Source: Sulfurimonas sp.
GTDB taxonomy: Bacteria > Campylobacterota > Campylobacteria > Campylobacterales > Sulfurimonadaceae
Direction of reading: 5' to 3'
Length of the DNA stretch: 34,934 bases
NCBI RefSeq assembly: GCF_026991475.1
Contig: NZ_JALXBK010000115.1
Span: 1-34,934, forward strand
Positions within the stretch are counted from its first letter, which is position 1, and each line of letters begins with the position of its first letter. The position numbers were made by a program, and so were the translations under genes. Shown here piece after piece: positions 2,924 to 4,849 of this stretch. The notes under the pieces are model-generated. The model searched no databases. It saw only the letters and a list, made by a program, of their open reading frames with translations, and was not told where the DNA came from.

Positions 2924-3310
2924 ATGAAAAGATCAATACTTTTAGATACACATCCAATGTATGCTATGGAAATTTCAAAATCTGAGGCAAAAGTCTCAAA
3001 TATTGATGAAATTATTACACACTTTAAACAAAAGATACAAGAGAATCCAGAGGCTGTCTTCATCACTGTTTTCGACCACTATGCACATACAAAAGAGCTT
3101 AATGGCGAAATTTTAGATACGATCGTCAATGCTAAAAATCTTCTCTTTTGTTTTGGACATACTATTAAAAATATTGAAATTTTGGTATTTAGACCAAAAT
3201 CAATCGCTATTTGTGAAACTAAAGAGAGTTTCGTTTTAGAATTTTTAGAGACTCCAAGACCCGAAGTGAATGCTTGGATGCAGTCTTGGATCAAAGAACT
3301 TCAAAAATAA
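2924..3310 (+). CDS. conserved-looking hypothetical protein, 128 aa
   Basis: I do not recognise a function. The product is a soluble acidic protein with no signal peptide or membrane segment. It has alternating helix and strand character, with hydrophobic strands around residues 44-50 (AVFITVFDHYAH) and 70-90, and ends in a Trp-containing helix (WMQSWIKELQK). It may belong to one of the Campylobacterota-specific domains of unknown function. It has a clean promoter and ribosome site. It is the only plus-strand gene in the first 31 kb and separates pdhC from lpd-lipB-lipA, as if inserted into an originally continuous PDH/lipoate block. The repeat element at 3313 starts two bases after its stop. 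Confidence 0.75.
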   Translation: MKRSILLDTHPMYAMEISKSEAKVSNIDEIITHFKQKIQENPEAVFITVFDHYAHTKELNGEILDTIVNAKNLLFCFGHTIKNIEILVFRPKSIAICETKESFVLEFLETPRPEVNAWMQSWIKELQK

Positions 3311-3312
3311 TT

Positions 3313-3579
3313 AAGTGCCTGACCATAATAAATGTCATAATTCAATGAAGAAAGAAAACATAAGGTACAAGGCGAAAATTCGCAGGAGCTACTAGTAGCT
3401 TCAAGGATTTTTAACAAAGTAGATTGTGTTTTCTTTCTTCACCCGAAGGGCAACACTTAAAAGGCTTATCTTCTTCGTTAAACTTCGGCTAACGATACTA
3501 GTATCGCTAACCAAAGTTTGCCTTGAATCTAAACCTTTTAAGTGTTGTTGAATATGACATTTATTATGGTCAGGCACTT
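3313..3579. repeat. nested inverted-repeat element (MITE-like), 267 bp
   Basis: The outer arms 3313-3339 and 3553-3579 are perfect 27-base inverted repeats, extended after a one-base bulge by TTCAA/TTGAA. Inside are two secondary structures side by side. Arms 3347-3360 and 3427-3440 (14 of 14) enclose the palindrome AGCTACTAGTAGCT (3387-3400). Arms 3451-3464 and 3534-3547 (14 of 14) enclose AAACTT/AAGTTT and the palindrome CGATACTAGTATCG (3493-3506). Both inner hairpins centre on ACTAGT. It fills the space between two convergent stop codons almost exactly, so it may act as a two-way terminator. No long open frame is present. The design resembles Correia-type or other non-autonomous miniature elements. 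I could not identify a target-site duplication. Confidence 0.85.
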
Positions 3580-3580
3580 G

Positions 3581-4849
3581 CTACTCCTTAAAATTAAGAG
3601 GCTCACTTGCCTCTTTTTTGACATCCGCCATAAAAAGTGCTGCTTCGTAACCATTTATAAGTCGATGGTCTGCTGTAAGTGTTACACTAATTTTGCCATC
3701 ACTTATGCCACCTACTGCAACAATGGCACTCTCATCTTTGTTTATCATTGCATCAAAACGCGCAACGCCAAGCATTCCAAGATTTGAAATACCAAAAGTA
3801 CCGTCTTGCATATCTTTTGCACTAAAATTATTAGTTTTAAGCTTCTCTTTAAACGCAGCGAGTTGCTCTGTTATTTCAGAAATTGTGAGTCTGTTTGCAT
3901 CTTTTATGACGGGCATATAGAGATTTTTTGCATCTGCTACGGCGATGGAGAGCGAAGCATTTGGAGCGATGGAGAGGGCGTTGTCCAAAAGTGTTGTGCG
4001 AAAACTTTCATGCTGCATCATTACTTTTGCAAAAATCTTTACAAGCCACGCTGTCATACTATGTGTGTGGTGTGCCTCAAAAAGTTTGGCATCTACGGAT
4101 TCATAGATGTGATAAATGGGCTTTTGAGCAGAACGCGTTACATTTGCAATGATTGCTTTTTGCATCGGTGAGAGTGCTTTTGGAAGTGCTATTTCATTTG
4201 CATCGATGTAGGTTTGCACTTCATCGCTGTCTATCTTATGATTAAGTTCAAAAAGTGAATGCTCTAGCTGGTACTCTTGCAATAGTTTCAAAGCTTTTGG
4301 CGTGAAATACTTCTCTGTGACATACTCATCGACATCCTCTGTATGAAGCACTTTTTGTGGCATTTTCGCCTGAAGTTTTTCAATATCAACACCCACAGCA
4401 GCGGCTTTTGCTCTGGCTTTTGGAGATATGCCACTTTGTGTTTTATGTGAAATATGTGATGCTTGGCTCTGCTTTGTTGTTGTTGGAGCAACAGAGGATG
4501 TATCAAATATCTCATCTAAAACACTTTTTGTCTCTTCTTTTTTCGAAGTTTGTTCTTCTTTTGGCGCTGTTTTCGGCTTAGTTGCTGCTTGTGCTTGTTC
4601 TGTAGAAGCTGTTGCACCCGTTTCAATACGCGCAATAACAGTCCCAATCTTCACTTCATCATCTTCTTTTACTAAAAGTTCTTTGACAACACCATCTTTA
4701 AAGGTTTGCACCTCCATAATCGCCTTGTCACTCTCCACTTCAGCAATAACATCACCGCTTTTGACACTTTGACCAACACTTACTTTCCAGCTTACTAATT
4801 TTCCCTCTTCCATTGAGTCAGAGAGTTGTGGCATTACTATCTCATACAT
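3581..4849 (-). CDS. pdhC: pyruvate dehydrogenase E2, dihydrolipoamide acetyltransferase
   Basis: Core acyltransferase of PDH that passes acetyl from the lipoyl arm to CoA. The 422 residues show one N-terminal lipoyl domain with the lipoylated lysine K42 in ESDKA, an Ala/Thr/Gln/Lys-rich linker (about 78-130), a peripheral-subunit-binding domain (about 132-172, GISPKARAKAAA), and a CoA-acyltransferase domain to the C terminus. The active-site His is H395 in ADHRLING, but the usual Asp of HxxxDG is N399. The gene overlaps pdhB by 8 bases and ends at TAG 3581-3583, directly against the nested repeat. It is last in the long operon. A branched-chain or acetoin-type E2 is possible, but the neighbouring E1 genes and ppsA favour pyruvate. 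Confidence 0.9.
   Translation of the reverse strand: MYEIVMPQLSDSMEEGKLVSWKVSVGQSVKSGDVIAEVESDKAIMEVQTFKDGVVKELLVKEDDEVKIGTVIARIETGATASTEQAQAATKPKTAPKEEQTSKKEETKSVLDEIFDTSSVAPTTTKQSQASHISHKTQSGISPKARAKAAAVGVDIEKLQAKMPQKVLHTEDVDEYVTEKYFTPKALKLLQEYQLEHSLFELNHKIDSDEVQTYIDANEIALPKALSPMQKAIIANVTRSAQKPIYHIYESVDAKLFEAHHTHSMTAWLVKIFAKVMMQHESFRTTLLDNALSIAPNASLSIAVADAKNLYMPVIKDANRLTISEITEQLAAFKEKLKTNNFSAKDMQDGTFGISNLGMLGVARFDAMINKDESAIVAVGGISDGKISVTLTADHRLINGYEAALFMADVKKEASEPLNFKE
3851..3860 (+). repeat. one of seven same-strand copies of AAACGCAGCG
   Basis: The decamer AAACGCAGCG occurs at 700, 3851, 4957, 11350, 26019, 27488 and 33420, always on the plus strand. By eye I found none in the opposite orientation. 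All copies lie inside minus-strand genes but in two different reading frames (Leu-Arg-Leu in some, Ala-Ala-Phe in others), so the word is not explained by one protein motif. It may be a polarised chromosome signal (Chi-like or KOPS-like). Confidence 0.55.

Follow-up and report, generated by a model that had tools for sequence, protein, structure and literature searches.

Several described systems resemble the element reported here. In the parts of the literature covered, the RUP repeats of pneumococcus, which are mobilised by IS630-Spn1, are non-autonomous, carry IS630-like ends, use a TA target and fold with their ends paired (PMC2229807; PMC3049150). The Correia/NEMIS elements of Neisseria are likewise small and are described there with terminal inverted repeats (TIRs) of about 24–26 bp, a terminal TA and a hairpin structure (PMC2229807), while the BOX elements of Streptococcus pneumoniae combine a modular interior of conserved secondary structure with TIRs resembling those of an insertion sequence, ISSpn2 (PMC3049150). 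The passages on the REPIN/RAYT system describe two inverted hairpins, each with one special strand, that are moved in trans (PMC3116915; PMC3733652), and those on the CIR repeats of Caulobacter/Brucella describe two arms joined by a linker (PMC2229807). The family described below bears on the question of why end-to-end folding is so frequent among bacterial MITEs.

Position and architecture of the element

The window analyzed in this work is the whole 34,934-nucleotide stretch of contig NZ_JALXBK010000115.1 from Sulfurimonas sp. (assembly GCF_026991475.1, the source genome). The 267-bp element (Table 1) is the sole place in this window where inverted pairs of 20-mers lie less than 1 kb apart. 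The stop codon TAA of the upstream gene occupies positions 3308–3310 and the downstream gene, on the minus strand, ends at 3581–3583; the element therefore takes up the whole intergenic gap except for TT and G, in agreement with an earlier note on this DNA that had placed it between two convergent stop codons. It should be mentioned that the upstream gene (2924–3310) encodes a small protein with relatives in 77 of 135 genomes of the genus and with a diverged paralogue (41% identity) elsewhere in the source genome (G000:C29:5160–5540).

The terminal 27 bases (3313–3339 and 3553–3579) are complementary at exactly 27 of 27 positions, as the earlier note had stated for the outer arms. No open reading frame of 100 aa or more is present inside 3313–3579, and the TIRs are not accompanied by a transposase gene. 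The perfect 14-base stem claimed for each half was also recovered: the basal stem of the first hairpin (hp1) is a perfect 15 bp and encloses AGCTACTAGTAGCT at 3387, and that of the second (hp2) is 14 bp and encloses CGATACTAGTATCG at 3493, both 14-mers being perfect palindromes as reported. Two features had escaped notice: the halves are separated by another small hairpin, CCCGAAGGG, and they are related to each other in inverted orientation. Both consist of a hairpin unit whose mismatched CAAGGC/TAACG loops are near-invariant, and the two units face each other across the CCCNNNGGG hairpin.

Table 1. Features of the 267-bp element in window coordinates (CM R1, covariance model of the hairpin unit)
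Feature	Position	Strand	Remarks
Left target dinucleotide TA	3312–3313		Assigned by target-site comparison
Left outer arm	3313–3345	+	33 nt; 27-bp perfect TIR AAGTGCCTGACCATAATAAATGTCATA, then A and TTCAA (pairs with TTGAA of the right arm); TIR equals the ends of IS630-family elements L069/L088/L096 at 24/27 positions
Hairpin unit A (hp1)	3346–3441	+	Basal stem, near-invariant CAAGGC / TAACnnAG internal loops, apex AGCTACTAGTAGCT; CM R1 match 3353–3431, + strand, 87.8 bits (itself a training sequence)
Central mini hairpin CCCGAAGGG	3442–3450		Predicted fold; CCCNNNGGG in 29/29 aligned copies
Hairpin unit B (hp2)	3451–3547	-	Related to unit A in inverted orientation; minus strand carries CAAGGC..TAACG; apex CGATACTAGTATCG; CM R1 match 3461–3540, - strand, 82.0 bits (itself a training sequence)
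Right outer arm with second TIR	3548–3579	-	Pairs with the left outer arm
Right target dinucleotide TG	3579–3580		Usually TA; one of 8 imperfect cases among 43

None of 200 dinucleotide-preserving shuffles was as stable as the predicted fold of the element (z -14.6 as DNA and -15.4 as RNA). The fold is a predicted four-way junction made of the outer stem, hp1 (96 nt), the mini hairpin (9 nt) and hp2 (97 nt), with no unpaired linker. The same linker-free junction is the lowest-energy fold in 35 of 50 diverse elements (264–289 bp), and 10 further elements depart from it solely by an unformed mini hairpin; thus in about 30% of these elements the exact junction is not the minimum-energy fold. Within Campylobacterota the plan comprises, in almost all elements inspected, a total length of 264–275 bp and arms of 31–35 nt, the longer tabulated lengths being due to chance extension into the flanks or to nested inserts. 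About a dozen unrelated kinds of arm sequence were found around the shared core.

Two copies with additional sequence were also seen. Close to the hp1 apex of one (L105, 922–1208), 19 bp including CCCTTTGGG have been inserted and form an extra hairpin, and in hp2 of the other (L224; G114:C24:7249–7699) a palindromic element of about 180 bp is nested.

Dispersal and transposase partners of the ends

The possibility of a mobile miniature element, raised in the earlier note, gained support from an empty site, dispersed copies, TA targets and an IS630 partner with near-identical ends. The search among relatives proposed there returned both an empty site and additional copies at other Sulfurimonas loci. 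In the sister genome (G123) the element is absent from the orthologous site, whose flanks are 98% (left) and 95% (right) identical: the empty site reads ..CTTCAAAAATAGCTACTACTACTCC.., and in the source genome the element stands between ..CTTCAAAAATAATTA and TGCTACTCC.. The join in the sister genome departs at a few bases from the sequence expected for a clean TA insertion, and for this reason the exact target cannot be recovered at this locus. As defined by the TA target sites, the mobile unit spans 3314–3578, with TA on the left and TG, where TA is expected, on the right. Both sides carry TA in 35 of 43 independent copies with AAGT..ACTT ends.

The closest full copies (L008 and L009; 97% and 95% identity) are located at different loci in other Sulfurimonas genomes. 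Copies were collected through sequence searches and from targeted stretches of genomes. The terminal sequence is present in 29 of 135 genomes of the genus, mostly as inverted pairs spanning about 267 bp, and its exact matches in named genomes were all from Sulfurimonas. A search of plasmids and phages with the element itself revealed no copy.

Some genomes contain several copies. At least 11 copies of a ATTACCGnACCAA type, about 97–98% identical in the three compared, occur in one complete genome (G360), where no longer insertion sequence bearing ends of this type was seen. Three identical copies in another genome (L243, L244 and L245; G198) also have identical flanks and therefore probably lie within a larger repeated locus.

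Autonomous elements with similar ends were found in other genomes. IS630-family elements of about 1.07 kb in G152 and G153 have the ends AAGTGCCTAACCAAAATTAATGTCATA with TA outside; their terminal sequence TAAGTGCCTAACCAAAATTAATGTCATA compares with TAAGTGCCTGACCATAATAAATGTCATA in the window element. Four elements with a PF13358 transposase (L069, L088, L096 and L091), all from genomes other than the source genome, agree with the window element at 24 of 27 terminal positions, and the ends of two further IS630 elements (L075 and L090) correspond to two other arm types. The autonomous partner with the same 27-base ends that the earlier note had envisaged thus exists in the form of close, 24/27 matches in other genomes, and not in the source genome, in whose 131 contigs neither DDE_3 (IS630) nor Y1 transposases were found. 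Since these transposases were not found there, the element may now be stranded in this genome. The Correia-like layout suggested for it holds in that both are IS630-type MITEs with TA sites, and fails for the interior, which is different, larger and four-armed; the Correia end sequence presumably differs as well.

A second kind of partner was revealed for the AGACTTCTTTCATAACC-type arms. They match a 907-bp insertion sequence that is present in four copies in G382 and has two reading frames matching HTH_Tnp_4 and DDE_Tnp_4, that is, of IS5 type. The AGACTTCTTTCATAACC-type copies of the source genome are 96–99% identical to each other, and all four are flanked by 3-bp duplications, AAT/AAT or ATT/ATT, in contrast to the TA of the IS630 type. 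Just 17 nt of these arms match the insertion sequence; the remainder, up to about 32 nt, is unrelated and yet paired. Therefore, it is the architecture that sets arm length, not the insertion sequence.

By every sequence feature tested, the 267-bp element is a non-autonomous DNA transposon, an IS630-type MITE. Its dispersal, TA sites and end similarity are read directly from the compared genomes, and transposition in trans is the process to which they point.

Constraint on the units and their distribution

The stems show strong covariation. In the alignment of 29 copies, 95.1% of the pair cells are paired, 59 pairs have changed on both sides, and double-change cells number 331 against 87 in shuffles. 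In slid versions of the alignment the paired share falls to about 40%. A comparison of distant units placed most of the near-invariant bases in internal loops, those around CAAGGC and TAACGnnG.

The two kinds of mismatch are unequally distributed. With wobble given no advantage in the scoring, the ratio of G-T to A-C mismatches on the strand read inwards from the end is 44:6 in the basal and 44:3 in the middle stems of the units and 11:17 in the outer arms, counts that come from related sequences, are not fully independent and could alternatively arise from strand-biased C-to-T change. One family was also counted separately for its two facing units. Here the basal stems are biased on opposite strands, as expected (38:10 versus 11:41); of the upper stems, that of unit A has no bias (46:47) and that of unit B is biased (29:101). 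With G-T in excess over A-C in the units only, constraint appears to act on the units, and not on the ends, in the form of one particular single strand. This suggests that the units, and not the outer arms, act as a folded single strand, either ssDNA or RNA; a structured RNA, which the earlier note had considered, is one of these two options. Such a strand-specific constraint separates the part concerned with transposition from a part serving something else, and it makes the question of end-to-end folding directly testable.

To describe the distribution of the unit we used two covariance models. R1 detected units in at least 32 of 298 Campylobacterota genomes and the broader R2 in at least 72 of 397, belonging to 27 of 68 genera, all of these counts being lower bounds from models whose training sets were drawn partly from the same genomes. 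In nearly all inspected cases two units face each other over a short C-G hairpin within outer arms. The source genome contains at least 10 four-armed elements of four arm types. For annotators, this is a family to mask, carried by the above genomes and with several copies located at contig ends.

Outside the phylum, where the spread is judged from a few plasmid records, R1 scored units absent from its training set at 60.9 bits in a plasmid of Subdoligranulum (Bacillota), at 56.5 and 55.6 bits in Pseudoalteromonas and at 42.2 bits in Catenovulum. The units of Pseudoalteromonas and Subdoligranulum occur singly. The Subdoligranulum hairpin lies at 57445–57575 of plasmid OY725836.1, and in Pseudoalteromonas replicons (NZ_CP022523.1, 13 places) the unit is part of a multi-copy element of roughly 197 bp with other ends. 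A search with a 60-nt unit consensus gave no match, and four matches of a motif scan in viral contigs were discarded when R1 failed to confirm them.

Reduced forms were also observed. Single-unit versions of about 160 bp (L213, G094:C13:3934–4092; L257, G453:C18) have an outer arm leading straight into one hairpin. End-only palindromes of 45–62 bp that have no core are known for three arm types (L116, 959–1003; L024, from 1501; L225; L222; L207), and they may be either deletion products or precursors.

Proposed mechanism, alternatives and comparison with described systems

We consider it highly probable that the element is a MITE moved in trans by an IS630 transposase and that its interior is a conserved folding module, which most likely holds the ends together while the element is single-stranded. 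An IS630-family transposase, supplied in trans, would bind both 27-bp ends, excise the element and then insert it at a TA dinucleotide. On either single strand, with the ends paired, the interior would close into a four-way junction of fixed size. Judging from the wobble bias, the constrained strand of each unit would be the one that is read 5' to 3' starting at the end and going inwards; since the units form an inverted pair, a fork or RNA polymerase entering from either direction would first meet a unit in working orientation, located in the transcript or on the lagging-strand template that is exposed. Most likely, the module would serve to fold the element during its single-stranded phase at the replication fork. 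Such folding would hold both ends together and sustain copy number, whichever transposase recognises the ends. We infer the role at the fork from a strand bias that an RNA role would fit equally well, and that a C-to-T bias could produce too.

A possible but distinctly less probable reading is that the interior works as RNA, the first unit folding in a read-in transcript and causing pausing, termination, cleavage or protection that insulates the neighbours, similarly to the mRNA effects of RUP, BOX and NEMIS. The stable RNA fold (z -15.4), the excess of G-T over A-C in the units, which is the expectation for RNA, and one terminator-like match within hp1 are consistent with it, and BOX and RUP have been argued, in the passages covered, to influence co-transcribed genes (PMC3049150). 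However, no T run follows the outer stem, and the gene context of 58 copies is convergent in 5, divergent in 24 and tandem in 29, so many copies have no flanking gene transcribing into the element. Of a transcript-dependent RNA role and a DNA role at the replication fork, the divergent contexts favour the latter, though not decisively.

It is rather doubtful that mobility resides in the two-unit core, as a REPIN-like element of its own that enters end-only palindromes or other transposons, with the arms as mere landing sites. One core within IS630-type arms, IS5-type arms and about a dozen arm types, the end-only palindromes, the single-unit forms and the units outside the phylum would agree with such a history. 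Internal deletion explains the end-only palindromes equally well, though, and the arms measure 31–35 nt regardless of their ends, even where just 17 nt match, as in the IS5 type. Besides, the inner part of the arm stays paired, which is not expected from insertion into short palindromes, and the source genome has yielded no Y1 transposase.

It seems unlikely that the fold is free of selection and that the hairpins of an otherwise ordinary IS630 MITE simply arose as by-products of its origin (inverted duplication, template switching). According to the passages covered, end-to-end folding is found in many bacterial MITEs (PMC2229807; PMC3049150), and perfect arms can be restored through template switching; yet by-product hairpins would leave unaccounted for the near-invariant unpaired loops, the constant dimensions over about a dozen arm types, the strand-specific wobble confined to the units, the double changes far above shuffles and the sharing of the core with IS5-type ends.

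A dedicated bidirectional terminator between convergent genes, as the earlier note had also envisaged, is very improbable and was dropped as the main role: the window copy does lie exactly between two convergent stop codons, but the sister genome manages without the element at this site, the other copies are mostly in tandem or divergent contexts (5/58 convergent), and a scan of both strands for a G+C stem with a T run gave one weak match, on the plus strand inside hp1, and none after the outer stem.

Beyond the reading as a MITE with a folding module, we tentatively raise the possibility, against which the chances are appreciable, that the paired-hairpin core is a distinct undescribed module of at least three phyla. 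It would be flanked by ends belonging to unrelated transposases (IS630, IS5, probably also others), and its near-invariant single-strand motif would be recognised, at the replication fork or in RNA, by a host factor that is widely conserved. If true, one module could parasitise many transposon families.

A REPIN/RAYT system had been the first guess from the ends, and it was abandoned when no Y1_Tnp (PF01797) match was found in the source genome; PF01797 is present in 46 of 100 genomes of the genus. Rfam covariance models produced a sub-threshold chance match only, and literature searches, with most subscription papers outside their scope, returned no description of these repeats.

The nearest kinds are RUP, Correia, BOX and REPIN, as far as the covered parts of their descriptions go (PMC2229807; PMC3049150; PMC3116915; PMC3733652). 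On the same basis, RUP is 107 bp long and confined to one species group, whereas the Sulfurimonas element is 267 bp and four-armed, and its core, unlike RUP, extends to additional phyla and to other ends, among them those of IS5 type (PMC2229807; PMC3049150). The interior of Correia/NEMIS is described there without a facing pair of conserved-loop hairpins (PMC2229807). BOX has a variable number of modules and a length of 67–637 bp in the account covered, while here the length is fixed at about 268 bp and the ends vary (PMC3049150). The REPs are given in the passages covered as 20–40 bp units with GTAG/CGTC tags and a Y1 transposase, and no units of this type were found here, where they are about 95 nt long with CAAGGC/TAACG loops and DDE-type ends (PMC3116915; PMC3733652). 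The CIR repeats have a GANTC motif and no closing outer stem, a distinction drawn from the description covered (PMC2229807). In the passages covered, none of RUP, Correia, BOX and REPIN is described as keeping one fixed four-armed core across the ends of different transposase families (PMC2229807; PMC3049150; PMC3116915; PMC3733652). In the family reported here, the ends switch transposase family around a core whose geometry is fixed and whose loops are near-invariant.
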